From positions 27,896,558-27,960,557 of the forward strand of contig NC_088714.1 in assembly GCF_963576615.1 (NCBI RefSeq): 64,000 nucleotides of DNA, written 5' to 3'. The translations under genes were made by a program, and so were the position numbers. The DNA is from Watersipora subatra. Its lineage: Eukaryota > Bryozoa > Gymnolaemata > Cheilostomatida > Watersiporidae. Position 1 is the first letter of the stretch, and each line of letters opens with the position of its first letter. Below are positions 6,124 through 38,851 of the stretch, in pieces. Below the pieces are notes generated by a model. It was not told where the DNA came from, did no database searches, and saw only the letters and a program-made list of their open reading frames with translations.

Positions 6124-6489
6124 TTTTAGCTGCTCTCCTTGTAATAATGGCTTTAGAATGGCTGACAAGTCAGTCCGTCAGTCGACGCAATAAATGAGCT
6201 TCTCAAATGCAATATTTATTAATTCTCACCTCCTGCAAATATCCTATTTCCTGATTGCTTTTATCGAGTTATGAATAGCGAACTATCAAATATATGTGCT
6301 AACAGAAATCCATAAATACGACAGTGAGATAAAAGGGATTGAATTTTCAAATCAATATTGTTTTTACAAGATCAGTTAGCTACTGTAACTTTGGTGTGTT
6401 TTGTGTAATATGTAAAAACATCTCTGCTAGGAGACCGCGTTGCCTTCGTTTGGCTGTATCACCTTTCAGAGCAAAGGTATTTTGAAAGT

Positions 6490-7745
6490 TATAAAGCGCA
6501 TGAACACAGTGGCAATCAGATAGAGCTTTATAAGGCGCATGAACACAGTGGCAATCAGATAGAGCTTTATAAAGCGCATGAACACAGTGGCAATCAGATA
6601 GAGCTTTATAAAGCGCATGAACACAGTGGCAATCAGATAGAGCTTTATAAAGCGCATGAACACAGTGGCAATCAGATAGAGCTTTATAAAGCTCATGAAC
6701 ACAGTGGCAATCAGATAGAGCTTTATAAAGCTCATGAACACAGTGGCAATCAGATAGAGCTTTATAAAGCTCATGAACACAGTGGCAATCAGATAGAGCT
6801 TTATAAAGCGCATGAACACAGTGGCAATCAGATAGAGCTATATAAAGCGCATGAACACAGTGGCAATCAGATAGAGCTTTATAAAGCGCATGAACACAGT
6901 GGCAATCAGATAGAGCTTTATAAAGCGCATGAACACAGTGGCAATCAGATAGAGCTTTATAAAGCGCATGAACACAGTGGCAATCAGATAGAGCTTTATA
7001 AAGCGCATGAACACAGTGGCAATCAGATAGAGCTTTATAAAGCGCATGAACACAGTGGCAATCAGATAGAGCTTTATAAAGCGCATGAACACAGTGGCAA
7101 TCAGATAGAGCTTTATAAAGCGCATGAACACAGTGGCAATCAGATAGAGCTTTATAAAGCGCATGAACACAGTGGCAATCAGATAGAGCTTTATAAAGCG
7201 CATGAACACAGTGGCAATCAGATAGAGCTTTATAAAGCGCATGAACACAGTGGCAATCAGATAGAGCTTTATAAAGCGCATGAACACAGTGGCAATCAGA
7301 TAGAGCTTTATAAAGCGCATGAACACAGTGGCAATCAGATAGAGCTTTATAAAGCGCATGAACACAGTGGCAATCAGATAGAGCTTTATAAAGCGCATGA
7401 ACACAGTGGCAATCAGATAGAGCTTTATAAAGCGCATGAACACAGTGGCAATCAGATAGAGCTTTATAAAGCGCATGAAAACAGTGGCAATCAGATAGAG
7501 CTTTATAAAGCGCATGAACACAGTGGCAATCAGATAGAGCTTTATAAAGCGCATGGACACAGTGGCAATCAGATAGAGCTTTATAAAGCGCATGAACACA
7601 GTGGCAATCAGATAGAGCTTTATAAAGCGCATGGACACAGTGGCAATCAGATAGAGCTTTATAAAGCGCATGAACACAGTGGCAATCAGATAGAGCTTTA
7701 TAAAGCGCATGAACACAGTGGCAATCAGATAGAGCTTTATAAAGC
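6490..7745. repeat. 39-bp tandem array, 32 copies
   Basis: The unit carries TATAAAGCGCATGAACACAG and GGCAATCAGATAGAGCT. Copies differ at only a few positions. The array starts 367 bases upstream of the HFxGG start codon. As 39 is divisible by three, one plus-strand frame (unit ELYKAHEHSGNQI) stays open through all copies and closes with TGA just after the array. One minus-strand frame is also open but is broken once, near 6838. No start codon is visible for the plus frame. Confidence 0.97.
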
Positions 7746-17803: not shown

Positions 17804-17897
17804 ATCTTCTATGTATGGCGTAATAGTAATAATTTGCATAGCTAATTTATGAGAAATGCTAACATTATTTGAAGGGAATGTTTTCCAACAACAGACC

Positions 17898-18093
17898 ATG
17901 AGTAAAGCAAAAACTTTCAAACGAAAAGTTCAAAAAGCCTCAGTACCTTCTGGAAACTTTGCGGTAGATGTCACTGGCGGGGACGGGTACAGGAAACTGA
18001 GAGAATCTGAAGAAGAAGTTCTTAAGGAATCACTTAGCAGGTTCAGTGAGGAAGCCACTAGAATATCACAACAAGAGATCGATTTCAAGAAAG
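17898..18093 (+). CDS. cGAS-like gene, exon 1
   Basis: Encodes a basic start (MSKAKTFKRKVQKAS) and a helical, charged segment (RESEEEVLKESLSRFSEEAT). It ends in phase 1 before GTAACT. An acceptor-like ttttccaacaacag sits directly before ACCATG, so an upstream non-coding exon is possible. Confidence 0.8.
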
Positions 18094-21000
18094 GTAACTT
18101 ATGCAGTATGGCAAAGCTCAGCTCCGTTTTCTACCAGTCTGTTCTGGCAACTAAGACTTTGTCTAGACTTTCACTTTGCTGCCATAAAATTGCCTTGCTA
18201 GCGCTCACTTGTGAGAAAACCTTTTCCATGTTCCTTTTACAAGAGAACTTCATGTAAATGATTTAGAGCTAAAGTTTACACCCAGGCGCTCATACAAAAA
18301 TGATTGAACTATTTGAGGCTTAGCTTTATAAATGTATGTGTAAAGGTATAGAGAATCCCAATAGCTACTTTTAAGGTCACATTTCTTTTTGTCAGAGGAT
18401 GGTGCAGTCATATAAGGTTATGTGTAGATACGGGGGTTTTCATTCAAAAAATGTCTGCTGAAAAATTTCTCTCACGTTTTATGCTTCTTCAAGTATTAGT
18501 TATGATTTAGAAGATCACATGTTTTGGTATAGGAAACCTCACTACTGCTTCTTCTGTGAGGCCTGTGATTGTGCTAGCTAAAAGCTGTAGTCAGCCATCT
18601 TTTTTGTGTTAAATTGGAACGATTGCAAGTAGAGAGCATCTATAACTAACATCACTCAGTAAATCTCATGCCTCTGCCAGTTTCTCATTATTTACTGTAT
18701 GAATTCAGACATTGTCTTTTATGTATGAAATATCAACCATTTGAACCACAAAAACCCATAAAAGTGTGATTGAGTTTTTAGAAGCTACAGACACTGCTGG
18801 TATATGTGCGACACTGAGAAGTATATGTTAGTGAATAAAAAAACCAAGCCGCTAGTTACACTTTGCTCTGACATTTTTTTTATTTTCAAGGACAATAAAT
18901 GGAAAAAAATTATCCAAAACTTGTCTTACAACATAAATGGGACATGTAATACATAATACAATAAATAGTATGATACGGTACATAACATAAGAAAGAGAGT
19001 GGCCCCATCATCTTTCGGAAGGCCACTTAAGGATGCAAAACACTTTCTCTTGTTTCATGCAAATTGATTAGTAGGTAGCAAACCACTAGAAAACAAAGGC
19101 GGATCAATAAGGTATGTTCTATCGGTCAAAGCCTTGAATAGGCCAACTCATTATTCATACTCATGCAATCACTCAGCTTCCTTTTAAGTATAGCTATACA
19201 GGCCTTGTTTGGCTTTTTAATATTATATAGTAGCTACCACATCTAATGAGATTTATGATTATTTGAAAATAGAGCTGTTGATCCTACCAAAATATTCAAT
19301 ATGTTTTTACCCTTCTGTTGAGAATTGATATATTGTTGATTTCCATGATAAACTGACAATAGGTCGTCTTATGATACTTTGCACATGGATAAAGTTGGCA
19401 TAAGCCATACATTGGTTATAAAGTGCTTATTTGCATGGCTATACATTACATTCATATCTCTACATAAAAGTGCTCCAACGATACGAGAAATTCAAGATAG
19501 GAGCTGACTTTCGAGCAAGTTTATTCCTTGAGATACGAGTAATCTTTGAGATATGAGCATACAAGCCGGTTGTCGATGGCCACTATGTGGCCAAGTAATA
19601 ATAATAGCGTAATATGGCAGGTCTTTCTCTTTGAAACAGTTTAAAGGAAGTTCTTAAAATGTTGGCTAAAAGTTATAGTGAATGCGATACAAAATGCAAC
19701 TAACTAGAAATGGATACTAAAAAAATAAAACGAAAAATTAAAGTAAGTTTAGTAAAATATTAAAACCTACTTAAATTTAAGTGTGTGTTTAGTAAGCTAA
19801 ATTCATTAAGTTGAATTTTAAAGCTTCTATTACGAAAATTCGCAAAAGTTTAGTGTACCGAACGCGTTGCTCTCACGTCTCTCTCAGACGACCGTTATCC
19901 ACAATGTCTGTCTCGAAGGTAAAAACTCCTTGAAGTAGTGATACATAGTGATGTTGCATTTTATTGCAGCCCATAACAACTAAATAGGCATTTGTTACTG
20001 TTTTTAACTCCTGCACTAAAAACAACCATTGAAAACATGTTTTCCACTGTATATAATAACCTATTTAGGTGTTTTTTCATAGTATGCTAGGGGATTAATC
20101 TTTATTTAGATAATTTATATGGAAAATCGTGCCTTGAGATGCGAGCAAATTGACATACGAGCTCAGTCTCAGAATGCATTAGGCTCGTATGTCGAGGTAT
20201 GATTGTAGTTGGCATTGATTCCCAATTCTAATAAAACATATTACAATTCTTAAATATAACATTAGCTCTTTGGACATTTTACCTATTTTTCTTCAATTAG
20301 CCATGTTACGGCAACATGTTTGAGCGAAGATGTTGGTACATATTGCTTGAATATTTTAGATAAAAAGAAAAGTTTCATAGTATTTTTATCAAAACTACTA
20401 AAAATGAATAACCACCATGTTGAAACCAGGATATCGTTCACTTTAGTATTTAGCTGTCATAAAATTTTTAAGCGTCGCAGTAAATCTAGCAGCTTGTTCA
20501 GGTGCATTCTAACCATTGAATAAGAAATCAACAAGCGGAGTAAAGCAACAACCTGAACAAGTATTTATAGAACTAACGTGGCGTGCGCACAACTGTGTTG
20601 GTTTAAACCAAGTGTAATTATGTAGGGCAGCTGGTACCAAGGTCATAGGACATCAGATTGCTATAACCATTACATATGATTTGCTGTATATATTATTATA
20701 AAAGACCCAATAATAGCTTCCAGAAGTATGGGGAACTATAATTAGCAAGTGTTGTTTTATTATAGCTTAGACTTTCATGAACCAACTTTATGCTTAGATA
20801 CCTCAAAAAGGCCTGGGAGACTTTCACAATCTCACAATAATATTACGCATTTGTTACCATAGTCACCTGCATGCACTAGTTTTTATTTATAGTAACCAAG
20901 CTGGTCAAATTTAAGATAAAACATTGATTGGCAGTATAAAAACTAAACATCTTTATCAAAATAACAATTAAATTTTCAAATTATGCATTTTTAATAGAAT

Positions 21001-24000
21001 ATTTACCAACAGGCAGCAACGATATGCACAAACCAACCGTACCTAAGAGCTACTGTAATAAACTGTTGGGTACAGCAGGTAGGCCAAACCAGCTGACAAG
21101 CAGATCGAGGTTACCAGCATTACTAAATAGGCAACAGCATACTTAACCATGTAAAACAATTCAGCCTCACATAAAGTCAATATTCGTAACCTATTGTGGG
21201 TCTCCATGCTTCAAATGGGTTCGAAGTTTCTTCCACTCTGAGTAGCAGAAATGGTACAATCCAAACGGATGTGACACCACTTCGCTTCAGTAAATTTGTG
21301 CGAATGGATTTGCAGTGAGACTACTTATCATCGTCATGAAAATGCTTACGGTGGATGGATTTAAATCGATAATACTCGGTTAAGCTCTCCCCAGTGGAGG
21401 TAAAATAACTCAGCATATCTCATCGCACCACTAACTACAATCGCATTACAACTACTATTGCCAACAATAGGTTGCTCATATGAATATGACGAGATAATTG
21501 TATCTTTTAAAATTTTATTATCTTATTCATTAAATAATTGAACTTAATGGCTGTACAGGTTCTCACTGCACTAGTGATGACCTCTTCCTAGGCTTAACTT
21601 TTTCAGCATAGAAACAGTTACGTTTACTAAAAGCGATTGTAGTTCATGCGACCTTTGAAGTAATAATTGTATAGCAAGTAATAAATTATGTTGCTATTTC
21701 ATAATATAGAGGGATACTAGCCAAATGCCCCGCATTATACACAGGTATTAAAACAACTTATAATCAGTGGCAGGTTATATGTAGTTGTCTGCCACTTGCC
21801 CTTAACCTAGTAGGTTGCCTATGACTAATTTGAGTAAGCTAGTAACAGTATTGCTAAACTTACTAATGAGAACCCCGAGAGCAAGCTTTAAGCCTGGTTC
21901 CCATATCGATTGCGAGACTCCGGCACATAAAAGCTGCATTGCTGATAACCGCATAAAATATGTTTGCTCACCATGCTGTTTCAATAATAGTGACCTTCAT
22001 CTGTACAGTGCACCTTGGAAAGGTTTTGCCGGCGGCCCTTCGCGAATTTTGAGCAGCGCTAAACTCTTGTGTTGACCGCCGACAACTACCGGTGGTACTC
22101 GGCGGTACCTGGCGTGTAGGTTCACTTTTCCCCGCTGATAACCTGCGGTGCTATCGCCGGTGCTTTGCAGCGTATATGGGAACCAGGCTAAAGTGATATT
22201 GCGTAACACAGAGTGCTATGCGTATTTTAACCGAGATAACAACTCGCATCACCTAATAAATCCATTGCATCTCGCGTAGCTTAACTGGTTAGGTTATCGT
22301 CTAGGGAACACGAGGTTCCGAGACCAAATCCAGCACGAAGCCGTTCTTTCATTTCTAGATTTTAATATCTATAACTAGACAGACCGAACGACAACAGACT
22401 TTGAGATATATATATCGATTATTATTATTAATAATAAATAAAATTGTGGTAGGTATAGTTTAAAAAGTTCTGTTTTAAAGAGTACATCGCGAGTTTTGGA
22501 AAATCGACTAAGTGTAACTCGGAACAGTTGAAACTGTAGCTTGCTAGTTCATCAGCGTAGCTCAAATCTGAATCCATCATTCAAAGCATGCAAAACCCAG
22601 TGAACATGCACAAAGGTGAAGGTTAATTGGTGACTGAATAAGATTTGATAGTTTGTTGAATATTTTTGATGCTTGTAACTCTGTCTTATAGCTTACATAT
22701 ACTTTTGAGATAAATTTTGTAATTTAATAGGCAACTCATAATGGTTTTTAAATCTCTCATGAAGCTTTTCAATATGCCAGACTTGCTACTGCCATGACTA
22801 AATCAGAGCACAATAAAAAATATTTTATTGTCAAACAACATTTTGTTGGTAAGATGACTGAATCACAACAATTTTTGGCATTGACCTCTTTTAGAAGGCA
22901 AATCTTTGTTTACTAACTATTCTTGCTTTTGCAGATCTGGTAAAATGGCTTGTAAAACAATTCGAAGGAGAGATGAAAGGGTATTGGTATCGGTCATTCA
23001 ATGCAGGAAGCGCTTATGAGAAGGTGCAAGCTGGAGAGGCCAAAGACTTTGATGTTATGATATTTCTCAACATAAGAAAATGGTTGTGGCAGGTGTGTAT
23101 TAACCTAAAATATAGCCAAACTGTTTTTAAGGCTTTCACATAGGCACCAGCCAATTGTTTACATAGCAAATCTAAGTTTGCTTTCTGAACTTCCAAAAAC
23201 CTTTATTAAGCTCAGTTTTGATTTTATAGTTACTAGTTAACGCTTTAAAACGAAAGCTATCTAGTTTACAGTTTTAGGTTTTCATCGCTCTAGATTTTTA
23301 TTGTTGCTTTCATTTTGCACATTCAATGAGATCAAATGCATGGGGGATGCGAGTTGTATTTTTTGCATTTTTACCAACAGCTACTGCTTGGTAAATTTAA
23401 ATTGTTTTGTTATTTGACAGCGAGATTAATTATTAAAGTTTGCTAAACAATAACTCGGAAGGAAAACAACTGCTTCAGACTGAGTTTTACCTTACAACAT
23501 ATTGCATTTCTTCTGTTGCTAAAATAACCTTTTGATCAAGGTTAAGCCTGTACAGTACTTGTTCCTGCTTTGCAAAGCCACATTCCAGATGAACTGCAAA
23601 ATAAAATTTCTACAAAATAAAAACTAGATTTTTCAAGTATTAGTCATACTTTTAACATTTCAGACTTCAACTGCTTTCTAAACTTTCCAGAGTTCTATAC
23701 ATGCAAACACATGTCTATGTACCTGCGATTTATTTGTATAGTACGACGTATATATAACAATGAGATATGTTAGAGATTAATGAGAACTGAATGAAGAAGA
23801 ATGACTGAGATAAGAATAAAAGAGGTAAAGTCAATGTTTAATATTTTGCGCCAAACAGTAACAAACTAGCAAAAAGATAAAAGGCACCTATTGCTGATTC
23901 TCTGTAGACAAGGAAGGAGGGATGGCTAAATTCCACTCAGTCTATGCAAAGCGATTTTGAGCTATTCTCGTGAAAGATTCCATTTTTATCACTGACATCA

Positions 24001-27000
24001 ACCATGCAGCTAGTTGCTAGAAGACTTCTATAGTCAATAGACTGTGCTTCACATGCTGTCCTATACATATCCAAATGATGGCCACCAAAAATCTACAACT
24101 CGGTAAAGCCACGATGGTTGAAGCCATGAAGTAGTGTAAAGGGAAATCAACTGACTCCTTACTTGCGGCACCATTGTCACAAGAAAACTTGTTGTGAAAA
24201 CTTATAAGAACTTATATCTGTATGAATATTGGGTACAACATACAACATCTCACAAAGAAAGTGCGCTTACTTCTTACTTTGGCGAGTCTTCTTTTTCATA
24301 TGTGCTCTAGGCTTTGTTCTTCAGCTGGCATTGAGTCAGTAGCAATTTGATTCACATCTGGGTTCGACTTTCCTTTTGGAGTCTTGCGCTCATGAGCCGA
24401 GGAAGGATTACTATACACTGTAAATAAGTGAATTTATATGTTGCTACATTTGAGCTGATCAGTTGGATACAATTTAAAGCTGAGAGGCAAATGAACTCTT
24501 CATTAACTTTTGTTTAAAGTTTTGCCTGAAGAAAAAGTGTTATATACGTACATTATATAGCTTGTCATTTTAAGGTTCATGATGATCCGAGCAAACCAGG
24601 TTTCTGCTGGCTGACACGTGGTAAAGAGCGCAGGAAGGATAATCCAATGAGTTTCGCTCACTTCCTAGATGAAGAAGGAAGGTTGTCTTCTCTGAAGGTC
24701 TGTACTGTGAAATACAAAACAGTAACCATGTACAGCTAAGTAACCAAGTATGGCTTGTCACCTTTAATTTTAATGATAACAGCAAAAGCAATGGTTAAAC
24801 ACATTAACAAATTTGAGGATCAAATACAAATATAAGAACAAAAATATACTCTTTTTTTGTTCTTTTTGCTTTTTCCTCATTTGCTTTCTCTACTTATTTG
24901 TAAGCTGTATGCCTATTTATCTGCTCACCTTCAATACCCGCTATTTTCACTCGCTCTCTCCTCCCTCTCTTTTTTTCTTTCTTCTATGTCCTTTTTTCTG
25001 TTCTTTTTTCACCTTTTTCTTTGCTGTGTCTTTTTTCATTTTTTGCACTTGCCCTCCTTTCTATTTTTCTGCTTTCTTTTTACGCTTGTTTACTTTCAGC
25101 GTTCTTTGCTTTTTTTCAGTATTCTCTTTGCTCATTCGTTGTAATTTAACAATAAAAAAATCTCTCAATTGTATCTCTTCTTAGTATCTAATTCCTGCTA
25201 CTGCAGAAAGTCTTTTGCATGGCTATGCACTGGCTATGGCTCCAACCTTCATGCCAACCACCTCGTCTAACCAGCTATATAAGTGAAAGCTTACGAATTG
25301 TCATTTCCAAGAGGTAATGTCACCTCACTAAAATCACATTAAAGTCATATTGTGGTGGATGGCGTCCCCTTACATTTAGCCAAGCCAAGCCGATGTACAG
25401 CCAAGCCAAGCCGAGTCAAGCCAGAGCCAAGCCAGAGCCGTACTGACTCGGTACCAAACCGAGCTGGACCGAGCCGAGCCGGGCCGAGCCGTGCCGGGTC
25501 TAACCAAGCAGAACAAGGGCGGAGTTTAGCAGCTATATAAGCACGAACATTTGCAGTAGGGAGCAGAGCTGTAACAGTTCTGGGCCTGTTCATTGCCTGT
25601 TACTTGATCATTCTTGTACAACTTATGAACTAAGCAGAAATATATGTATAAACTCATGCACCGAGTTTTGTACAAGTGGAGGAAAGGTGAAGGTCACACA
25701 AAACCTTTACAATATGATTGTACTTCACACAATTAATCTTTTCTTATAATGCGCAGATAATTCCAGTTTTCACACATCTAAATTGTAAATTGTAATATAA
25801 TGCCACATTAGGATTACAGAAGTAAAATACACAAACTATTGCAATAGTCTTTAAACTTCAATACTTGACCAGCTTATCAAATTAATAGCTTCAAGATGAC
25901 CACCAACTTAAGAACTTGGATTTCATTTAAACCAGAATCCTCTCAACCTCTCACAATAAAAACCAATTAGTTCTGCAGGAAGTTGCTCAAGCTCACAGTT
26001 GATTGGTGAAGTTGCTGGTGTAGTATGATTTCACTAGTTTTGTTTTGGTATTGAATATTCACTAAGGAATTCTTATGTTTAAAAAACATACTATATATGT
26101 ATAAAACACAAATCAATCGCAACCAAATCTTATTGCAATAATTTAGACTGTTTCTTGGTTTTTTCCAAGAAATGACTGCTAACAGGGCTAGTTGAGATAA
26201 TCTCATTAGTCAATAAGTTAGTTGCAAAAAATATGTAAACTTTTTAACAAAAAATACTGTTTCAAGTGTGTAGTAAACCTTCTTTGTGCTTTGATACATC
26301 TTTATACATAATCATGTATATTTTAGGTAAGGAGGTTTTTCACAAGCAAAATTGACAAATTTTTGAGGCGAAACAACCCACTAGAATTTGAACACGCTCC
26401 GATCACACCCAAGGAAGCCGATAAAACTAAAGAAGGCAGTGAATCAGTAGAAAAAGTGAAGTTCAAAGTGGAGGTCACAAGAAAGTGCCAGGGTCCTGCA
26501 ACAACACTCAACGTGGAATGTAAAGGAATCACTCCCTTTACCATTGACTTAGTAAACAGTCTTCATCAGCACCACATCAGGCATGTTGTGTTTATGTTGC
26601 ACTCAAGCTATCTGATAGTTTGCTTGTAATGAAAGGCTGAAGTACTTTGCCAAGTGCCTCTATTGAAGGAAAACTTCTGATATAGCAGATCTGCCGATTC
26701 AGACTGCTTGTTTAAAGTTAAAATTCTGTTCACCTATTAGGCATAATTTGTTGTCATGAAACCTGGAACAAAAACTCATTTTATTAAGTACCAATATTTG
26801 ATTTTTTACTTTTGAAACTTTTTGTGGGTCAAAAGTTTCTTATTAAAAAGTAGTCTAAACTTCATTTCATTTTAAGTGTTTAAATGTGCTTCCTTCAAAA
26901 TACGGTATTTTTTGGAACGTGTCCGATCAATTTTCTGCTTGATTTGCTGAGTGTGGTGATCATAACTGCAGAGTGTAACTTGCTAAAAAAGTTTAGTGAA

Positions 27001-30000
27001 GCTAAACAACGTAGGGATTAGTAGAGTTATCTTCCTCTGTACGCAACTTAATACACACTACATTATATTCACACTAATTAGAGTACAGTTCCCGATGTAT
27101 TAGGCTGAACTATTATCGTGTCTGTTGTTTGAACTGCAACGTATCACAAAATAATTGTCTGTACATTGTATTCTATGTATGCATAGTTTGTACAATCTAT
27201 TGATGACTATTTCTAAGCCTCAGACAGTTAATTTAGTTTGAATAAATCATCTCATGACTGAATACTGATTGCATTAATGATTACATTATCAGAAATCTGA
27301 CAGTCAGTGCTCTTTGGTCAACATGTTCTAGATATGTCTTTGAAATCTCTTTGATGAGCTTTACAAAATTTACTTTCTAAACCATTTAACCTTTTGAACC
27401 CTAACTGCCAGTTTTCCGGCATTGTGTAGGATGTGTCAGAGTCCCTAATGGATGAAATTCCGGCATTCATACGGCTTTGTTTACAAAAGCTGCTTCTAAG
27501 AAACAGCATAAACCAATCAAATTAATTCTTCCACAGGATGTTATACCAGAAATTTCACTTCCATTTGTAACAGTTTTCAAATATCTTTACCTACTTCCTT
27601 TGTTTTAATATCAAATTTTATTAAAACGATATCGCAAAGAAATCGATACGACTTGTTTGTTGGTAGGTCATAAGTGATTGTGATGCAAATAAAGAATTTT
27701 ATATTTCTAATTATAATTTTTTAGTATATTTTCAGCCATGAAATGATGATGAACATTTGTTCAATAGATATGATTCTACTGTAAATTTTTTATGAGTTTT
27801 TAAAATCGTACAAACTTTTAGTTTTAGCCTGAATAATGGCAAGGTAGTGTTTTTTTCTGTTTGATGACATTTGCTGTGGAGGTTGCCCTACTTTTTTCAC
27901 TATTGCTTTACCAAATATCACTGTATTATGAGCACGTTTAGATATATTTAATAAAAGTTTAAAAACTTCTGATCGTTGGATGAATTGCCCAGGGTCACTG
28001 ACATGCATTGACAAAAGCGGCCAGGGTTCAAAGGGTCAAAATATAAGCCATAAGCTACAGTGTAGAATTTTTGCTAGCTTTATTTCATGCACGGAATGTT
28101 TTGAACTGACCTTTGTATAAAACATAGAAGTAAGTATAGTATTTGGCTAACACCTACTTATATATGTAAGTTCATTATTAATATAATTTTCTTAAAGAGA
28201 GGATGGTGCTCGGTGTGACTACGTGGCTAAGCCGTTTGACAAACAAACGATATTTGGGTCAGAATATGCTCATCTCTGGAGAAGATCGTATTCAAGGCAA
28301 GAAACCAATAAACTGAAGGATATTGATGATGGAAACCAGTAAGCAAGCAGTTTTGAGTTCTAATTATATTCATGGTCTGTGGGTCAGAAAACAAGCCCAT
28401 CCAATTATACTTCGTGTAGTGCCGGCTCACTCACATTTTTACTATTTGCAAGTCTGTCTACACCTTCTTTTGTTTTTTTTAGCCCTATGTTGTCATTCAA
28501 GTTGAGTTTCAACAAAAAAGAACGACATTTATACTTAATGTTGTTCATTTCAGAGTATGACTGTTGTATATATAACAAATGCTTTGTACACTTATTTAAA
28601 GAATACGCTACTTTTGTTATATGAGGTGTCTACAGCTTGTGGTTGAAAAAACCAGCTGCTGATCAAGTAGTTTGTTAATTTTGCTAGAACCATGATGGTG
28701 ACAAAACATTGACCTATTTATCTACAAAATCTCTTGTTTAGCACCTTACTTCTCTTTTGAGGGTTTAACTAAAACAGACAAAGGAAATGCTAACATATAA
28801 AAATTAAACTAGTTTGTAATACCTTAAAAACCACTGTTTGAATGCCCTGTATTTTTCAATCTTTTCTCTTTAGTGACATTCTATTAAAATTGGCTCTCAA
28901 ATAAATGTGACACTCAAATAGAGGTTTTGTGGTATTTTTACAGAAATTTAGTTTCAATTTATAAGCAGATTCATTAGAGAGCGAGGATTATTTTTATATA
29001 AGTTTAGAAATTAATAAGTTATCATTATATGAGTTTCTCCCATCGATAATTTTCAACTGTAGTTATTTTTTGAACTATAGATTGGTTGTCTTATTATAAC
29101 AGCAGTTCCTTCTCAATTTATAGATAACTTAATAAACTTATTAGACTGAGATGGCTCTTTTTTATAAAACGCGTAGAAAATCAAGTTACCAGGTTATCAT
29201 TAGAAGAGTTTTTAACAATGGTAGCCGTTTTTCCGATAACTTCAATCAAGATTCTGATTGTTTAGTTATTATTACTCAATAGCCGACAGTGGTTGCTGTT
29301 AATTCCAAGGCAAAATACTCCATGCTGTATGCAAAATACTTCTGCAAAATACTAAGAAAAATCCCTTTGTTTTAAATTTTTATGTATTTAACTTTTTGAA
29401 AATGTAATGCTGTAATTAAAATGCTAGACAATAGGTTTATGTGTGATACGTACAACTTACATCTATTTTTAGCTCATAGTCAGTTACTTCATTTTCATCT
29501 ACTTCATTTTACTTATTTTCATATCTAAAAATTCAGTTTAAATATTATTGGTGTTTGGTGTTGACATTTTCTACCAATGTTTTGAATTTAATTGTATTTA
29601 TATATTGACTAGAAATTCCCCTGTCATACAGCCCACGACTAAAGTGTTATTGGAAAAAAGAAAGGGTACTGCCGGTTAAAAAATGCAATATTAGCAGTCA
29701 AATGGCACTGCAGTGCAATAGGAGAACCAGTGATGTAGTGCTAACCTTTTTTTAACCATAACTGCAAAGTTGAGATAAGTAGATGTAGGCGACAAAGAGT
29801 CGTGACGCGACTCCACCTATTGACATTTCATGGACCTATTGACACATTAGGCCCCCAGCTGTTCCAACCGCCACTATGTAGTGGTTGGAACAGCTGGGGG
29901 CTTGGGGGTCGCTGTAAGCCCCCAGTGGGATCCGGGGCAAAGTCCCGTTTGCCAAAGCTTACAGGGCTTTAAAATCATGTACATGATATGAGAAATGAGC

Positions 30001-33000
30001 ACATATGCAGTAATAAATACATTGATAAAATAATAAAAATTTGGGAATATAGTGTTGCAAAGAACCCTGAGAAAGACAAGCAACCAAATAAATTTAGTAC
30101 AAATGCTGACTGCCATTGGTTTGCTGTAATCTGATCTTAGCCTTAGTTGTAGACAACCGATTAGGATCACAATCTTGTCATGTTACATGAACATACATCA
30201 CTGTATTGTACTGTGTGCTGCTTTTATATTGAATGACCATCGAATGTCGATTATAATGACATTAGTGTACTTTAATCAATGAAATAGAGCTGTAATATAT
30301 CTTGAGAATTGGCAAAGTCTAACAATTTTTAACCCCAAGTATAATTATACTTAAAAAGCACACAAATTTTCTAACCATAACTTAGTTAGGGAGAGTTAGG
30401 GTAGCACTACATCAATGAGGAGAGCTGCAATGGTAGCTGTAATGTTACAGTACTGGGTGTTATTATGTACAACAACAGCAATAATGATAAGAAATCTACT
30501 ACTATCTCAAACTTGTGTTTTACAACAATAAAATAAATACTAATTCAAGCTGTAGGCCTAACCTACTGTACGTAATTTAATTAACAACAGCAATAATGAA
30601 ATATGTTTATTATATCTCTGAAATGCAATATTAAAAGTAAAATGGCAAGCTGCCATGTAATATACACAGTTTAAAAGTTGGTTGTGTTGAATGTAGAATG
30701 TTTTTGACAGCGATATGTAACAGAAAGCAAGCATTAGCTAGCATTCACGCGTCTGGAAGTTTTGTGCAAACGAGTAAAATAAAGAAATATTCTTGTTACA
30801 AAGAGGCATTGTAGTTCGGCCCTAGTTTGTAGATAAGATGTAAAGAAATCTGGCTAATGCTCTAGATAATTTAATGAAACCTTCGGTAATTAGACAAAAA
30901 ACAGGCTGATAAACTGTGTACCACATTTTCGTACCCGTAAATCGGTCTACGCCTCAACGGTCTACGTTAATTAAAGAAACCTTCGACAATTGCACAATAC
31001 CATCATTATATACTTCGGTGTTGTAAATTCGAATGATTATTTTTATAATTAAATATTATAATAATTTTGTAAACCGAATAATTAAATTGAATAATAAAAT
31101 CGGCAAAAAAAAACGATTACTTTTTGGTGCTTCTAAGTGAATTACAGAAACCTTCGGCAATTGGACAATGCCATAGACTGGTGAAATGTGCACGTTTTTA
31201 GCGTGAAATGCCGACGACTTAATGGTTCTACTCTCTGTCACACGGCCTTATCAGCGTTTCGTTAGCCGGTCTTAATTTTGATTTAAAAAAAGCTTGTCAA
31301 GTTTTTATTTCGACTTTAGGCCAAATTAATCTGTCTATTTATGTATAATCCGATCAGATGGGTTAGTTTTAGGATATTGCAGAAACTTTTCAAAGACTTG
31401 GTAACATATTTAAATAAGTTTATATGTGTTTTGTATCATTATTATACTTAAATGACTCTACACAAAAAAAGGTTAAATTTGTTGATGAGATTTCCGTACA
31501 AGGGTTTGGTCACGGCCGTTCACTGATAACTTTTTGAGAGTTGTGTGCACATTTATCATAAATCTCCTGTGTTTGGTCGTGGGATTAAATTTGAATAATT
31601 TTAAGGTTATTATAGCAAAATGGTCTTCAATGCACTTGAAAACTTTGTGATTAATTTTCTAAGCACAATATGTGGCAGAACCATAGCGTTGGCTATGCAT
31701 GTATGTATCTGTCAAAACACTTATAAAAGGTCATTTGGCAGTCAAGCTACAGTACTTTTAATGAATACACAGTTACCACAGACCATCTAGCTTTTATAAA
31801 AATACATTATATTTGCTTAGTTATAGTTTATGAATACCTTTAAAGATGAACTTACACAAAATTTTAGTGGATTTTATTAAAAAGTATCAGTATTTTCACA
31901 GCATTTGCAACTGTTTTTGATGTTTGCTGTGATCTGACTGCCAGGATGTTTCAAAATTAAAATCAACAGAACTTGATCGCGATTAACACGCTCAGGAACA
32001 AAATATGTGTGAAATGATGTCACTAGTTTTTGTTGTTCTTATAATTGATATTGGCTATTGCGTTAAAGTTGCAGCGTTACGCGTATCCATTCCGTGGACC
32101 TCTGCAATTTTAGAGGTCATAATTGTACTTTCGTTTGATCTGAGTGTTTAACCGCGATCAAGTTTTGTTGTTTTCAGTCTTGAAACATATTGTCAGTCAG
32201 ATCAGTTAAATCGTCAAAAGCAATCGCAAATGATAGTAAAATGATAGGAAAGATAAGTCTGATAAATTTGATAAAATCTATTATAGTTTTGTGCAAGTTT
32301 ATCTTTAAATACTGCAGCTTTAAGCTTTTCACGCCGGCAATATTGACATAACTTATAGTTGCCTAAATAAAGCATTTGAAACTAGCAATTTTGAATTAGA
32401 ATACTAGCATCTAGTATTCTAATTCTAATTGTTTGTTAATTTTTCCCACCAATTAGATAAAATTGAAACATAAGTTACAAAGACACGTGTTGTTAATGCG
32501 TGTGAACTAAACTGTAATAAACATTCCTTAAAACATTGAAGTTATCTTCTCAACAGGATACATAAGAAGCTATTACGGATATTCAAGATGCTAAGGAACA
32601 ACCAATCGCAGCTGAAGCTGCTGAAATCATATGTGTTCAAAAACCTGATCTTCTATATGTCAGACATGAAGGGAAGAGACTGGGGCAATGATCAGATTGC
32701 TGACAGGTGTGTAAACTACAAAGTTCATTGAAACCCCTGTTAACATTGTCAAAAATTAACCATAAAATTATTTATGGTTTTAGCCCTCATTTTAGGTTTA
32801 ATACTTTTGTATGTTTCATTAAATTTTACTTGCTAAAACTTAGTGAAACAGTTTTAGTAAAACTGCTTTATCTTAGTGAGAATTAGTGTTTCACTTACTG
32901 TTTTTGTAAGTTCAATATACTGTAGGCAAATTTCAACACTTTTAAATGCCATCTTGTATATAAAACTCTTGTATATAAAACTCTTGTATATAAAACTCTT

Positions 33001-36000
33001 GTATATAAAACTCTTGTATATAAAACTCTTGTATATAAAACGGATTGAATCTCCTGATCCGTTTTAACACTTTTCTACTGACTGTAAAAACACTCAGGTT
33101 ATTGAACTGAAGGTTATTGAACTGAAGGTTATTTTAAAACTCTAAACTTTTAGAACTCAAAGAAAGTAACAGAAATTAAATAGAGTACATATTTTTCTTT
33201 TTACACTTTTTCAAAGAAGTCATGTTTTAGAGATAATTGAAGAAATATAATTATTGAAATACTCCGATTCTGATAGCGTGTACATATTTGTTATGAATAG
33301 ATAAACAAATAGTTTCAGTGTAAAGATCTTCATGACGAGGAGAAGTCTTTTAGCTTTGCCTGTTTTTTTTTATTTTTTCATTACCCAGAAGTTCAGTCAG
33401 CATGTCTATCTGCAGCCCATTCTTTTTTTCTTGGTCAGCTAGTAATGCCCATTGTATTTTGATGATATATCAATAACTAACAGTCGAATCAATTTGAAAT
33501 TTATAGTTATGCTAAAAACTTAATAGGAACAAAAGCAACTTTTCTAAACCTGAAAGTAAACTAAAAGTGTGGAAAAACAAACTGAAACTATGCAACTGAG
33601 TTTGCTTGGGCTTATGATCAAGTGGGAAGACAATTCCTAGAATTGTCCTTTGCCTAGGCTTTGAAGTGCTATGCACTATGCACATTGTTTAAAAGCTTGC
33701 TTGTTATAGGCTGTAATGTTGAACTGTATTGCTTCTACAATAAATCTTACAGGTTTATTGACATGGTACTAGGATTGAGAAACTGCTTGGCTAATCACCG
33801 GCTCCCAGTTTACTTCAATCAACAAATCAATTTGCTCTCGGAGTCAGAATACGGTGCTGAGAAGCTCGAACACATTAGGGGATATCTGAAGAGAGTAGCA
33901 AATAAAGGTAATGACGTTTCTTAGCTTTTTTACTGGGTTCCCACTTATCTGTTCACAATATAGTATAGCAACTTTGATGATAATTGGGCAGAAAGTTTTT
34001 TTTAAAAATCTCATTTATTCAGTTATTATGAGCATCATGTAGTGAAAAACCAATTTTTGATTGCGGTAAACTAAATATTGTGTTTGTTACTAATATATAA
34101 CAGGACATACATAATTTGAAAAAAGCTTCTAAAAACTACAAAAAAGTTGGGCATATACGTATCTTTTTTGCAAGATCCCTGATATAAAATTGAAATTAGA
34201 GGAATCACTTGTCTTAAATGAGATTTAAGAGGTTTACCAACTGGGGTTGAAATATTTTAGTTAAGGCATCATCCTTCTGGTACACTGGAGAAAATACCTT
34301 CTGTGACAATAGTTGTTAAAAGTTGATTTACACAACTGGAGAAAATGTCAAAAAACTATTTTTAAAATATGGATAAAAAATTCTTATATAACTCCTATAT
34401 TGAAAAATAATTTTTTTTTAATATAGGAGTGTTTAAAATAAAACTGCATTAAAACTAGAGCTAGAACTCATGTATGCACTCAAACATGAACAGCAGTTGA
34501 CAGTTTTATAACCTTGTAATTACCAGGTAAATTTTTATAAATTCAATATAATGATGCTTACTTGTATTACAGCAATAATTTCACCATATTTGGTTGTCAA
34601 AGTTTCTGTAACTTATTTCATTTTGGTAGGAGTCCAAGGCTATGAGTCGCTGCTGACTGTAAGGGCAGCGCCACCTCCACCAAAACGAAAAATTCCTTCT
34701 GATGCAGCAGATACAGAGATACTTGCCATTGAATCACCTGAAACGGGCCAATCTATGAAAGCTAAAAGGCACAGGAAAACAAAAGCTATATCTGCTTCAC
34801 CATCAAACCAGTCAGAAAACGGCAAAACTAAACAGACTTCTTACCAAAACTCTAAGCAAAAACAAACTGACCAAAAAAGCACGAGATCTGATTCTAAGGT
34901 GAAAAGATACTTCTAATCTTTCATTAACGTTTTGCCATAAAAGCTCTGATACCTGCTTCTTAGCTATGACTTAAAATATGGTAACCTCAACACCAAAACT
35001 AAGGCCTCCTACAACATGACAACTAATACTTTTTGAGACAAATATCATCAACTTTTTAATGTCATTTTTATCACTTCGAAAGTCTCATTATATACTTTCT
35101 ACTATTTAATATTTGCTTTAGTCTATAGCAGTTTAACAATTGATATAACATATTGTTTTAGATGCCTAATTGGAATAAAAACAAATCCTTTCCAAAAAGA
35201 AATACTGATACTGCAGTCAACAGACCAATGAAGGGAAAACAAAAAACATGGCCAAAAAAGCCAGCAACAAGTACAAACTCAGTCAAGGTAAGGTCAAAGT
35301 TTAAATGTAAAAAATTGCACTGTAATTTTACATAGATATTTCTTAGACATGTCTGGCGCCGCTTGGTGCACAGTTCCTACATTTGATTGGCTCTTTTTAC
35401 AAGCGTATAGCTACTTAATTCCCTCTAGTTTTGGTATTTCCTTTTACATTTCTTTTGCTAAAAGTAATTATATACCTGATGAAATTCACTGCAATTGGTC
35501 AATATAGCATCTGATTTACTACAGTTTATTATAAAACAAGAATATTAAATAAGAAGAGAAAGGAACTAAATGAAAAATAATACATTACAAGACTAATGCA
35601 CTCTGTTTGATCAATGGTGATAACTGTACGATTTTTACACTTCACTAATCATCAGTAAGACATGGGCGTGCAGTGAATGTAAAAGTAAGCATGAGGCTCA
35701 GCTAATATTCGTGTTAATAAAATTAGATTAAAATTGATCCTATAGTCCGACAACTTGCTTCTATATAAAAATGAACTGGCAGGATACCTAGCAGGTCAGC
35801 ATTTGATTAGTCTCAATAATAAAGGTTAGTGAGGTTAATGATTTAGCCCGACCAGTTTTTTGACCAGTTGCTTGTACAGTGACGGCTTTCAAATAAAACT
35901 GACAGAAAAAATTCACCAGAAATCTGCCACGCAAGACTATGTAGTGAGAACAGGAAGTAGTATAATACTCACTGGGTGATAAAAAATATTTTTTTAAATT

Positions 36001-38314
36001 AAAAAGAGTTTTCTCAGTCTCCACAATTATTTTAAAAAAGTGCCAAAGCGATATTTGAATAATGCGATATATAGAGTTACTAGCTGTGCTAACCTGCATT
36101 GCCTGAGTATTAAAAATCAGCTTATAAACAATGAGAAGTAATGAGAGTTGCCTGCCACTTGCTTTTAGCCTGGCAGATTTTCAATGGAAAATTGTAGTAA
36201 GCTAACTAATGACAATCACTTATGCAATAACCCTGCGTGGTATGCAAAGCTGTTGGGTATGTGCTCTCATATAGCGACTTATATTGGCAATTTGCAACCC
36301 ATTCTCTGTGGCCTATTGGTAGGGAGTCGGACTGGTGAACGGTAGGGTCTGAGATCAAATCTTTTTCAGCACTGATTCTTTATTCCAAGATTTTAATAGC
36401 TATAGCCGGAATGGATCTCTTAGTCTCCTACTCCTGTTTCAGTTTTAAAGACTTTCACAAAACACTGTAACAGGTGATGATGTTTTGCGCTAACACTTTG
36501 AAGCCTGGCCGAAAGATAACTAGGAAACATGTTTTTCCGCCTGATCCTACCCCTGAGTAAAGTCAGATTTGTACATGTAGTTTCACTTTGTTTTTACATA
36601 CTTGCAGTTTATGGAAGATTATTAAATTTTGGCAGCTTTGCGTAATATAAATATTTAGTATAATTCTAAACTTTCAAGTTGATAAGACTATCGGTTCTTG
36701 AGATATAGCAAAAATCCCAACAACTTTTCTACCCAAATTTAAAAAAAATGGTTGCCGACAGAACACTAGTTTTTTTGCTCTTCCGTACCTTTGGTTTACA
36801 TAGAATCATGAAATGTTGATTGCGATGTTCGTTATATGTTTTTAGCACATTTTATAAGTTTGAAGCTGATTAGACTATTATTTCTTAGAGATTATAAAAT
36901 AAAGATTGCATATCTAACAGACCATGAAATGAAAAATGGCTGCTGATAGAAAATTAGTTCTTTTTGTATTTGCGTTCAACTCAGACCGCTTTTTGCGGAA
37001 AATATTTTCAGCATAATGCAAAACTTTCAAGATAATTGAACTATTAGCTCTAGAGATATTGCCATAATACTGAAGAAACTTTTAATCGGCCGATAAATGA
37101 TAAATGGCAGCTGTCAGAACAATAGTTTCTAATGACATACTTATTACATTTCTCTATAATGGAGATGCAGACTGGGCAAGCTAACTAAAAAATCAAACTA
37201 AAAAGCTTATTCTCCTCAGAAACAAAAGCTTTATCTACATATAAAAATATCTACACTTTATCAGTGTCGATTTACACCAACCATCATGTTTCTTCAGTGA
37301 CCTCTATAACATCATATCTTTGAAAGAGCGGGAAAAACTATTTGCTATAGTTAATTTCAGTTTTTTTATTGAGTTCTGCAAGCTTGAAGCTTCAATATGG
37401 TAGTAAGTTCAACAGGAGTTGTGCTACCCTTAGTACTTTTACAGTTGATGGAAAGTTGTGATCAGTTTAAGATCAGGGGGCCTTCTTGTATATACAAGGC
37501 TAGTCTTCAAAGTGGGAACATTCAAATTCTACGTAACAAAAATTGTTTGCCGCTAAAGTTGCATTTATTAATTTGCAAGTTAATAATATTCTACCAAAGA
37601 ACGTCATTCAAGCATTTTGAAATTCAGCTCTCTTTAATTGCCTATGTATGACTTACATATTTATATCTGCAGAGAAACAACCAAGTGAGGAACGTAAAGC
37701 CTTCAGAAATAAAGAGAAAAACAACAGTGGGATTCGAAAAGAAAAATTTGAAAAGTGCTTCAGCACCATCTCGCAGCTGGGCAGATGTTGTAAAGAGAAA
37801 AGACTACAAGCCAACCACATCAAATTTTTATGACTTTGATGAAATGGATGATGATTATGCAATGCAAGATGACCTTCAGGATGACTATCAGGATGATTTC
37901 CAGAATGACTTTCAGGATGAGTATGTTGACCCGACTGAGTATGATGATAATGATGATGATGAGAATAACTATGCTGCTGATGCTTATATGGACGAGATTG
38001 ACTATATGGACCATGCTGATGAGGAGAATCACGCTGACACAGCCGACCTTGCCGAGTATGGTGAATATGATGACCCTGCTGACCTCGCTGACCTTGCTGA
38101 CTATGATGACCCTGCTGACCTTGCTAACCTTGCTGATCCTATTGACCTTGCCGACTATGCTGACCTTGCTGAGCATGCTGACTATGATGACCCTTATGAC
38201 CTTGCTGACTATGATAACCCTTATGACCCTGCTGACCTTGCTGACTTTGCTGACCCTACTGACTATGATGATTACACTGGGGATAATGACTATGACTATG
38301 ACTATGACTTTTAA
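17898..38314 (+). CDS. cGAS-like (Mab-21 fold) nucleotidyltransferase with basic linker and acidic repeat tail
   Basis: Ten exons join in frame: 17898-18093, 22935-23092, 24575-24697, 26327-26580, 28198-28338, 32557-32706, 33753-33907, 34630-34898, 35162-35287 and 37673-38314. They encode about 737 residues. The nucleotidyltransferase core lies near residues 60-390. It has the G-S motif (NAGSAYEKV, about 90-91), the metal-binding pair in AKDFDVMIFL (Asp 103 and 105) and a third Asp in PFTIDLV (about 233). The C-lobe signatures are VAKPF, LWRRSYS, LLKSYVFKNLIFY and LPVYF. Established members make cyclic dinucleotides or related signals after sensing nucleic acid and feed STING-type immunity; some Mab-21 proteins are not enzymes. 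The intact triad suggests catalysis. The cGAS zinc-ribbon cysteines are absent. Residues 393-570 are Lys/Ser-rich with a possible nuclear signal (KAKRHRKTK). Residues 571-737 are Asp-rich with no Lys or Arg. The ATG at 17898 has A at -3; an in-frame ATG at 17856 is an alternative. Confidence 0.88.
21887..22193. mobile_element. GC-rich MITE with terminal inverted repeats
   Basis: The ends CTTTAAGCCTGGTTCCCATA and TATGGGAACCAGGCTAAAG are inverted repeats with one indel. The roughly 300-base body has no open domain. A diverged copy lies at 15130-15480. Confidence 0.8.
22268..22400 (+). repeat. tRNA-derived SINE, second family
   Basis: The A-box-like TAGCTTAACTGGTTAGG and B-box-like GAGGTTCCGAGACC are followed by AGATTTTAATATCTATAACT. 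A copy with the same tail lies at 36300-36425. Confidence 0.6.
22935..23092 (+). CDS. cGAS-like gene, exon 2 (G-S and DxD catalytic motifs)
   Basis: The acceptor is cttgcttttgcag; phase 1 in, phase 0 out before GTGTGT. It carries FNAGSAYEKV and AKDFDVMIFLN, the defining G-S and acidic-x-acidic motifs of the nucleotidyltransferase fold. Confidence 0.92.
23093..24574. other. Intron 2 of the cGAS-like gene
   Basis: No exon or clear repeat recognised. Confidence 0.45.
24575..24697 (+). CDS. cGAS-like gene, exon 3
   Basis: Phase 0 at both ends, 41 codons. It encodes DDPSKPGFCWL and FLDEEGRLSSLK, typical of the segment after the second catalytic strand. Confidence 0.85.
24846..25135 (+). repeat. 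Pyrimidine-rich tract
   Basis: About 290 bases almost entirely of T and C on the plus strand, with repeated CTTTTTTC-like runs. The open frames across it reflect composition only. Confidence 0.85.
25372..25505. repeat. GC-rich imperfect AGCC/GAGCC repeat
   Basis: Imperfect 5-6 base units (AGCCA, GAGCC, GGGCC) form a GC-rich island in AT-rich surroundings. Confidence 0.8.
26327..26580 (+). CDS. cGAS-like gene, exon 4 (third catalytic Asp)
   Basis: It starts in phase 0 after tatattttag and encodes KFKVEVTRKCQGPATTLNVE and TPFTIDLV. The end is uncertain. AG|GCATGT at 26580 would be a GC-AG donor in phase 2, agreeing with exon 5. TTA|GTAAAC at 26551 is a phase 0 alternative. Confidence 0.8.
26581..28197. 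other. Intron 4 of the cGAS-like gene
   Basis: Contains a piggyBac-like MITE (27386-28038). I searched this intron for an extra exon that would lengthen the short segment after IDLV and did not find one. Confidence 0.5.
27386..28038. mobile_element. piggyBac-like MITE
   Basis: The left end is TTAACCTTTTGAACCCTAAC. The reverse complement of the right end is TTGACCCTTTGAACCCTGGC, with 17 of 20 bases matching. The TTAA target and CCCTTTGAACCC-type ends are characteristic of piggyBac relatives. No transposase is encoded, so it is non-autonomous. Confidence 0.75.
28198..28338 (+). CDS. cGAS-like gene, exon 5
   Basis: Encodes GARCDYVAKPFDKQTIF and AHLWRRSYSRQE, and ends in phase 2 before GTAAGC. 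Three AG acceptors lie within six bases (exon start 28198, 28200 or 28202), one for each incoming phase. Confidence 0.8.
29605..31590 (-). repeat. Interspersed repeat E, copy 2 (inverted)
   Basis: It runs from ACTAGAAATTCCCCTGTCAT through CAGCCCACGACTAAAG to TTTGGTCGTGGGATT. It is the inverted counterpart of copies at 4061-5585 and 51257-52495, with extra inserted sequence including the hairpin region near 29851. Confidence 0.65.
29851..29901. repeat. GC-rich hairpin nested in repeat E
   Basis: GCCCCCAGCTGTTCCAACC pairs with GGTTGGAACAGCTGGGGGC, with a three-base bulge in the left arm. A further CCCCCAGTGGGATCCGGGG lies just downstream. It is probably the terminus of a GC-rich element inserted in repeat E. 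Confidence 0.75.
31850..32310. mobile_element. Foldback element M, complete copy
   Basis: The left half (from CTTACACAAAATTTTAGTGG) and right half are inverted relatives. AAGTATCAGTATTTT, TGATCTGACTGCCAGGATG and ACTTGATCGCGATTAA recur in reverse complement on the right. No coding content. Further copies: 2440-2700 (half), 45927-46390 and 53017-53433. Confidence 0.75.
32393..32425. repeat. Perfect 15-bp hairpin
   Basis: GAATTAGAATACTAG and its exact complement are separated by CAT, just outside foldback element M and 130 bases before exon 6. Confidence 0.85.
32557..32706 (+). CDS. cGAS-like gene, exon 6
   Basis: Phase 2 at both ends, acceptor tctcaacag, donor GTGTGT. Encodes KKLLRIFKMLRNN and KSYVFKNLIFYMS, the C-lobe helices where cGAS would carry its zinc-ribbon nearby. 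No Cys cluster is present. Confidence 0.87.
32707..33752. other. Intron 6 of the cGAS-like gene
   Basis: Holds a 15-bp minisatellite at 32952-33043. No exon seen. Confidence 0.55.
32952..33043. repeat. 15-bp tandem array, about 6 copies
   Basis: The unit is TCTTGTATATAAAAC, nearly perfect. Confidence 0.95.
33753..33907 (+). CDS. cGAS-like gene, exon 7
   Basis: Phase 2 in, phase 1 out before GTAATG. Encodes FIDMVLGLRNCLANHRLPVY and FNQQINLLS, the usual closing helices of the Mab-21 fold. Confidence 0.87.
33908..34629. other. Intron 7 of the cGAS-like gene
   Basis: No exon. An 11-bp inverted repeat (ACTCCTATATT and its complement) lies at about 34391-34430. Confidence 0.5.
34630..34898 (+). 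CDS. cGAS-like gene, exon 8 (basic linker)
   Basis: Phase 1 in, phase 0 out before GTGAAA. It has a Pro run (APPPPKRK), a basic KAKRHRKTK cluster and a Ser/Gln/Lys-rich low-complexity end. If not spliced, the frame stops five codons later, giving a possible tail-less isoform. Confidence 0.8.
35162..35287 (+). CDS. cGAS-like gene, exon 9 (basic linker)
   Basis: Forty-two codons, phase 0 at both ends, donor GTAAGG. It is Lys/Asn/Pro-rich (for example KGKQKTWPKKPATS) and predicted to be disordered. Confidence 0.75.
35288..37672. other. Intron 9 of the cGAS-like gene
   Basis: A SINE of the second family lies at 36300-36425. No exon recognised. Confidence 0.5.
36300..36425 (+). repeat. tRNA-derived SINE, second family
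   Basis: The head has TGGCCTATTGGTAGGGAGTC and a B-box-like GGGTCTGAGATCAAATC. The tail AGATTTTAATAGCTATAGCC matches the copy at 22268-22400. Confidence 0.6.
37673..38314 (+). CDS. cGAS-like gene, exon 10 (acidic repeat tail)
   Basis: The acceptor is atatctgcag, phase 0. It begins basic (KRKTTVGFEKK, SRSWADVVKRKDYK). From residue 571 on it holds only acidic, Ala, Leu, Tyr, Pro and Asn-type residues, with repeats such as DPADLADLADYDD, and ends in DYDYDYDF. The DNA shows GCTGAC-rich slippage-type repetition. Open antisense frames here come from this composition. Confidence 0.82.
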   Translation, partial: RNNQVRNVKPSEIKRKTTVGFEKKNLKSASAPSRSWADVVKRKDYKPTTSNFYDFDEMDDDYAMQDDLQDDYQDDFQNDFQDEYVDPTEYDDNDDDENNYAADAYMDEIDYMDHADEENHADTADLAEYGEYDDPADLADLADYDDPADLANLADPIDLADYADLAEHADYDDPYDLADYDNPYDPADLADFADPTDYDDYTGDNDYDYDYDF

Positions 38315-38851
38315 GAAGAAGATAAGCTGATGACTAAATCAACAAGTAGTAGGTTGTAATAGTGCCTCATCCCTCACTTGTTATTATAATTGCTCTAACG
38401 GCTCTCAGTTTCTCTATTTGGAGTTTATTAGGAAAGGCTTTGCAGTATAGCCGTAATGCTATACGTATTGAAACTTGCTCAACGTTTTTGAACTTTTATT
38501 AGCTTGTATATTAAATCAGAGTTGTCATCTTTTGTCAGTGGTAAAATGTGTGAAATCTTCTCAATTATTTGCTCCTATACTTGTTCCGTTTATAACAGCA
38601 AACATAACATTACCATCGCGCATATTTATAATATACTTGTACTAACAGAGAATATTTGTACTTACCGAATCTTGCATCATCTGGTTATGCATCAAGAGTA
38701 TGACACTGGTAGCTTTATAAGCTGATATGTGACAGAGAGGGCAACTCTTAAATTTGCTCTGATTCTAGTTGAAGGGAATTTGAGGATGCTTCAAAGGTAA
38801 ATACATGTAGCTATAGACAGAGTTACTGTATTTGAAAGAAACACATAAAAT

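Follow-up and report, generated by a model that had tools for sequence, protein, structure and literature searches.

The window analyzed here is a 64-kb stretch of contig C7, in a genome of 784 Mb in 239 contigs that is probably an animal's, to judge by its Mab-21 and STING genes. On its plus strand lies a candidate gene whose 10 exons, spanning positions 17898 to 38314, join in phase to give an open reading frame of 737 residues that ends in a TAA stop codon; the ten phase-compatible exons proposed in an earlier, sequence-only reading of this DNA are thus borne out. The exons and the two tandem repeats within the last of them are listed below, with reference to a paralog on contig C10 that served for comparison.

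Exon 1, 17898-18093, plus strand: start codon, basic N-terminus and helix, residues 1-65; end phase the same as that of paralog exon 1
Exon 2, 22935-23092, plus strand: start of the nucleotidyltransferase (NTase) domain, with G90-S91 and D103-F-D105
Exon 3, 24575-24697, plus strand: NTase domain; fused with exon 2 in the C10 paralog
Exon 4, 26327-26580, plus strand: NTase domain, with the third acidic residue, D233; GC donor, the paralog having GT at the same codon
Exon 5, 28198-28338, plus strand: AKPFDK...LWRRSYSRQE; end of the NTase domain
Exon 6, 32557-32706, plus strand: Mab-21_C helical domain, first half
Exon 7, 33753-33907, plus strand: Mab-21_C helical domain, second half
Exon 8, 34630-34898, plus strand: close of the core (GVQGYESLL), then the opening stretch of the Lys/Ser-rich segment; the paralog has a homologous exon
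Exon 9, 35162-35287, plus strand: 42 residues of the basic segment; no counterpart found in the genome
Exon 10, 37673-38314, plus strand: remainder of the basic segment, followed by the acidic tail (residues 571-737) and the stop codon
12-bp tandem repeat within the acidic tail, 37868-37920, plus strand, from Tandem Repeats Finder
9/27/36-bp tandem repeat within the acidic tail, 38062-38271, plus strand: Asp-Leu-Ala / Asp-Tyr-Asp-Asp-Pro units

The exon borders were set first from open frames and splice scores and were then corrected with the C10 paralog. Eight of the nine introns are GT-AG, and the remaining one, with the exon 4 donor after position 26580, is GC-AG. An acceptor-like AG is present at 17893-17894, immediately 5' of the exon 1 ATG. 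Human cGAS has a longer stretch at the position of the exon 4-5 junction, which was the motive for a search for an extra exon there. The candidates (27942-28034 and others) have poor splice sites and were rejected, the paralog joining exons 4 and 5 directly in the matching phase 2, and no candidate was found for an exon with a Trp between the two. An end of exon 4 at 26551 (GT) was dropped in favor of 26580 (GC) on the same direct join, so that the comparison with the paralog settles both the GC donor and the absence of an intervening exon. A loosely cGAS-like open frame on the minus strand (27318-27521) was likewise abandoned once exon 5 had been found on the plus strand. Two of the introns carry repeats: there are 5-bp-unit tandem repeats in intron 3 (25378-25498), and intron 5 (29608-29727 and 31095-31567) shares dispersed repeats, 94% and 86% identical, with a Mab-21-family locus on contig C2 (positions 4466-4584 and 4912-5379 of L048).

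When the first joined core was searched against the genome, 20 places were listed, the window gene itself accounting for 7. Five of the remaining listed places belong to the paralog, at 1113220-1123270 of contig C10 (best E 3.5e-14), whose seven exons have good splice sites and join in phase to 459 residues with a pI of 9.95. The cores of the two genes are 50% identical, and their border phases are shared, namely, 1 after exon 1, 0 after exon 3, and 2, 2, 2, and 1 after exons 4 to 7. The last exon of the paralog, the counterpart of exon 8, opens with GVKGYKDLL, where exon 8 opens with GVQGYESLL, continues into a Lys/Arg-rich stretch, and ends at a stop, with no acidic tail; the pair thus has the beginning of the basic extension in common. 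A QRNNKCLNANCRRMK segment is found in four copies downstream of the paralog (positions 18288, 19244, 21040, and 22460 of the joined loci L040/L041). The GS, DxD, and third Asp residues are complete in the paralog and also in three of the six further copies fetched (L042 to L047), namely, L042, L044, and L047, those whose matching exons were read; the reading of L043 and L046 was partial. A cluster of related genes resembling cGAS-like receptors (cGLRs) occupies 7.28-7.34 Mb of contig C4 (L042, L043, and L044), in which L042 and L044 are nearly alike, lie in opposite orientation, keep GS, DFD, and IDIV, and have a short C-terminus. The last core exon of these two, as read unspliced, reaches a stop about 20 residues past the core without a Lys/Arg-rich stretch. 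One locus for the ligand-binding domain of STING was found in the genome (C10:32856410-32866184, minus strand, L049-L051), with three exon matches, two of them over the cut-off.

The joined core passes the cut-off of 24.1 bits for both Pfam Mab-21 (PF03281; 51.8 bits, E 1.4e-13, over residues 93-284) and Pfam Mab-21_C (PF20266; 58 bits, E 1.1e-15, over residues 294-372). With GS at residues 90-91, DxD at 103/105, and the third Asp at 233, it is the Mab-21/cGAS-type core with a full set of catalytic residues that had been read from the letters. Searched against the PDB, in which 27 distinct sequences were matched, the full core has as its best relative 8gjy, "cGAS-like receptor 1," with 64.3 bits over residues 66-371, so that the homology, like the two Pfam domains, extends from the NTase core into the C-terminal helix bundle. 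Next come mab-21-like 1 (38.6 bits), MID51 (36.6 bits), and cGAS (33.3 bits), with MB21D2 last at 13.7 bits; a profile check that might have placed the core in a non-enzymatic Mab-21 group thus had the opposite outcome. A two-sequence profile gave 83.3 bits for 8gjy and 41.9 bits for the next chain, 7lt2. An earlier result with cGAS as the closest chain (27.4 bits, versus 20.3 bits for 8gjy) came from an incomplete join of the core and was set aside, since 8gjy leads when the full core is used. For comparison, the first exon of the C2 Mab-21-family gene was searched in the same way and put MB21D2 first of six (54.1 bits) and 8gjy second (46.1 bits); 8gjy is thus a good match for more than one Mab-21 branch, though not the best for all.

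MID51 is not known to make a cyclic dinucleotide, and its match to the C-terminal half of the core, along with a score for mab-21-like 1 above that for cGAS, raises the possibility that the core is a non-enzymatic or developmental protein of the Mab-21 or MiD type that makes no cyclic dinucleotide. The curation of cGLRs described in the text of PMC9980059 uses a GS activation-loop motif and acids in the pattern [DE]h[DE] ... [DE], with a strict form of h[QT]GS and 50-90 residues between the acids. The window gene has the GS and the [DE]h[DE] ... [DE] pattern and departs from the strict form in two ways that could be counted toward the same non-enzymatic possibility: it has AGS, and 127 residues lie between D105 and D233. 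Both departures recur in the nearest solved receptor, however: 8gjy has HKGS and about 104 residues between the matching Asp residues in an alignment whose third-Asp stretch is weak, so we take the mismatch to reflect a limit of the filter rather than a loss of function. The catalytic residues, moreover, are all kept in both paralogs, and a cGAS-like receptor is the best relative by a wide margin, whereas the C2 exon puts MB21D2 first. We therefore regard a core that makes no product as improbable. Judged by its sequence, the window gene is cGLR-like, a variant, and its core is very probably an active enzyme.

The protein continues well past this core, and the sequence-only reading had named as its main hazard that exons 8 to 10 might come from a different transcript. 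For exon 8 the matter is settled in favor of a single gene, since that exon recurs in the paralog, where it starts alike and carries a Lys/Arg-rich tail; exons 9 and 10 are absent from the paralog, and the support for them, from splice sites, open frame, and codon statistics, is moderate. Genes with the same basic tail were not found elsewhere in the genome, all three matches at E up to 10 being the window gene itself (eight candidates scored). An ordinary cGLR might thus be present here, the protein ending with exon 8, either by reading on into intron 8 (adding VKRYF, with a stop at 34914-34916) or by some other end, and exons 9 and 10 being unspliced or confined to a minor form. The paralog does end in its exon 8, with an AATAAA some 30 bases past its stop (position 17299 in the joined loci); the exon 8 donor of the window gene is middling (score of 2.5), and the acceptor of exon 9 is weak (-1.2); and exons 9 and 10 are found in the window gene only. 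Set against this, the acceptors of the accepted exons 3 and 4 are equally weak (-1.7 and -1.2), and the exon 9 donor (7.4) is the best of the gene. There is no AATAAA or ATTAAA between 34899 and 35173, and an ATTAAA lies at 38510, about 200 bases past the exon 10 stop.

Exons of this kind are also rare in the window. With an exon-9-like exon defined as one that is open, of phase 0/0, 100-300 nt long, and with a summed splice score of at least 6.2, the 64 kb contain three on the plus strand (exon 2 with another acceptor, exon 9, and one at 62006) and one on the minus strand. The exon 10 acceptor is the only plus-strand AG with a score of at least 0 that opens at least 150 codons, and the sole such site on the minus strand overlaps the exon 10 repeat; outside the gene and the large repeats, 143 of 6947 AG sites open at least 65 codons. 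In the proposed frame, the codon scores, for which the training set was two core genes and one C2 exon only, are 0.24 for exon 8 and 0.20 for exon 9; within exon 10, they are 0.31 for the basic part, 0.49 for the acidic part outside the repeat, and 0.51 for the repeat itself. Each of these is the top score of its three forward frames, although the repeat part is also open in a second plus-strand frame and on the other strand. The scores of exons 9 and 10 are all above the 95% point of 0.16 for intronic open segments (n=536; maximum, 0.28), and this argues against a protein that ends with exon 8. We consider such an early end unlikely; the basic and acidic segments are probably joined to the core.

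The charge distribution of the joined protein is markedly uneven. Residues 1-392 carry a net charge of +18 (pI 9.5), and the basic segment that follows (393-570; 178 residues) carries +28 (pI 10.6), for a net charge of +46 ahead of the acidic tail. The tail itself (571-737; 167 residues) has no Lys or Arg, a net charge of -66, and a pI of 4.05, so the two-part C-terminus described in the sequence-only reading, some 180 Lys/Ser-rich residues followed by 167 free of Lys and Arg, is confirmed by the charges. Shuffling the whole protein 20000 times gave runs free of Lys and Arg of up to 79 residues. By the charge-hydropathy rule both tail segments score as disordered, as does, by a small margin, the core. 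AlphaFold2 run on exon 10 as a single sequence without an alignment, which is weak evidence, gave a mean pLDDT of 52.6 and a pTM of 0.13, and a Pfam search of the acidic tail returned no family at E up to 1. An Asp-rich 167-residue tail was found only in the window gene within this genome.

Removing the tail shifts the pI from 5.38 for the whole protein to 9.92. According to the text of PMC9980059, nucleic-acid-sensing cGLRs have a pI over 8.5, and values down to 5.0 occur in some cGLRs that are active without added ligand and for which an acidic binding groove is predicted. By the pI of its core, the window gene would join the nucleic-acid-sensing group, and by that of the whole protein it would join the ligand-independent group; the pI of the whole chain can therefore mislead when such a tail is present.

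A minisatellite in coding phase makes up part of the acidic tail. All six exon 10 arrays reported by Tandem Repeats Finder have periods that are multiples of 3, which by itself says little, since 18 of the 36 other arrays in the window with a period of >3 share the property, and the coding-phase period was accordingly dropped as evidence. Arrays of the 9-bp type with long open frames also occur elsewhere in the genome, in five of the six loci looked at (from 157 matches), so an open frame across the exon 10 repeat carries little weight either. At L061, L062, L063, L064, and L056, the 9-bp-type units read DLADLA, TDTADT, DLVDLV, or EFAEFA, a make-up close to that of the exon 10 repeat. Two other features of the window may be recorded here. 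A 39-bp tandem array of about 32 copies (6489-7745) carries a long open frame on each strand (446 and 458 codons), and the Pfam names it attracts look like chance, no single stretch passing. A 136-codon open frame at 61892-62299 on the plus strand matches the TNP-like RNase H C-terminal domain (48.9 bits) and is a DNA transposon fragment.

The 9-bp-type arrays bear on whether the tail, if real, acts on its own core at all. It might be the product of neutral repeat drift, a tag for solubility or stability, or a binder of histones or another basic partner that sets the location of the protein in the cell. Minisatellite growth accounts for the second half of the tail, and similar arrays exist elsewhere in the genome. 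Acidic-aromatic units bind histones in chaperones, and the tail has eleven units of this DY/DF type (DDY, DDF, DEY, DYD, etc.). The first half of the tail, however, lies outside the 9-bp repeat and has its best score in the coding frame, and blastn of the exon 10 repeat DNA at 1e-3 found no match in the six loci tried. A tail of net -66 on a protein of net +46 would also be expected to act intramolecularly. We hold a tail that leaves its own core alone to be unlikely, at about the same level as an early end of the protein. Given that the tail is joined, a role in self-inhibition would have a chance that approaches, and does not pass, an even one.

How cGAS-like sensors avoid the nucleic acid of their own cell has been worked out mainly in vertebrate cGAS, by nucleosome tethering and other means. 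An acidic competitor built into the sensor would be a simple answer to the same problem. We propose the following scheme for the window gene. The basic core and basic extension would bind double-stranded DNA or RNA, the enzyme core would make a cyclic dinucleotide, and this product would act on the genome's own STING; we infer these steps from membership in the family and from the one STING locus found. The steps that concern the tail are the least certain. When ligand is absent, the disordered acidic tail may lie on the basic surfaces, where it would compete with weak or short nucleic acid and would be pushed off by long foreign duplexes, in this way setting an activation threshold and filtering decoys such as the cell's own RNA. 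The scheme as a whole, a catalytically competent-looking cGLR that senses nucleic acid, signals through STING, and has a tail that vies with nucleic acid in the manner of the HMGB1 D/E repeats, is the likeliest of the readings weighed but tentative, and we would put it somewhat short of even odds.

The electrostatic-lock principle itself is not new, since the D/E repeats of HMGB1 and others set a precedent. As presented in the text of PMC10250230 and PMC9664404, D/E repeats of HMGB1, RFX1, Sox11, and UBF1 autoinhibit DNA binding, the DNA being a competitor for the basic part, and those in HMGB1 and in an engineered homeodomain can speed the search for a target among decoys. With a D/E tail of 16 residues, target binding was slowed and no longer sped up (PMC10250230, PMC9664404). 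A tail of 167 residues and net -66 facing +46 could therefore act as a strong brake instead of a filter. A further and rather unlikely idea is that a repeat-built acidic tail serves the sensor as its own nucleic-acid competitor, its length tuning the threshold and the filtering of decoys by whole three-codon units. If this were so, a change in repeat number could quickly reset the discrimination of self from non-self by the sensor.

Searches of the open literature on cGAS and cGLRs, the text of PMC9980059 and PMC10855445 included, turned up no cGLR described with an acidic C-terminal tail. In common with cGLRs such as 8gjy and the PMC9980059 set, the window gene has a Mab-21 NTase and helical domain, GS, DxD, and third Asp residues, a basic core, and a STING in its genome; it differs in AGS, in the longer spacing to the third Asp, and in its added C-terminal extension of 178 basic and 167 acidic residues. 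The text of PMC9980059 gives 87% of cGLRs as having no appended domain, with the others carrying TPR, ankyrin, or death domains or being multi-cGLR fusions. Human cGAS resembles the predicted protein in core family, catalytic triad, and a long disordered segment beside the core, its N-terminus (residues 1-160) being unstructured according to the text of PMC10855445. The extra segment of the window gene is instead C-terminal and charge-bipolar. A zinc ribbon motif is a feature of cGAS; the five Cys residues of the window gene core (129, 213, 224, 250, and 352) include no adjacent pair, so a ribbon of the cGAS type is not apparent.

HMGB1 and other DNA binders with D/E tails have, on an unrelated fold, a basic nucleic-acid-binding part and then a disordered acidic tail, an order of parts that the window gene would share by prediction from its sequence. 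The tail of HMGB1 is an uninterrupted run of D and E, whereas that of the window gene is longer, Asp-rich but interrupted, and rich also in Ala, Tyr, and Leu, and it would be carried by an enzyme. The closest comparison is within the genome itself. The C10 paralog matches the window gene in its exon phases as far as exon 8, has a Lys/Arg-rich C-terminal exon and a core that is half identical, and ends in exon 8 without the acidic tail, so that the pair, one member with the tail and one without, offers a natural comparison.
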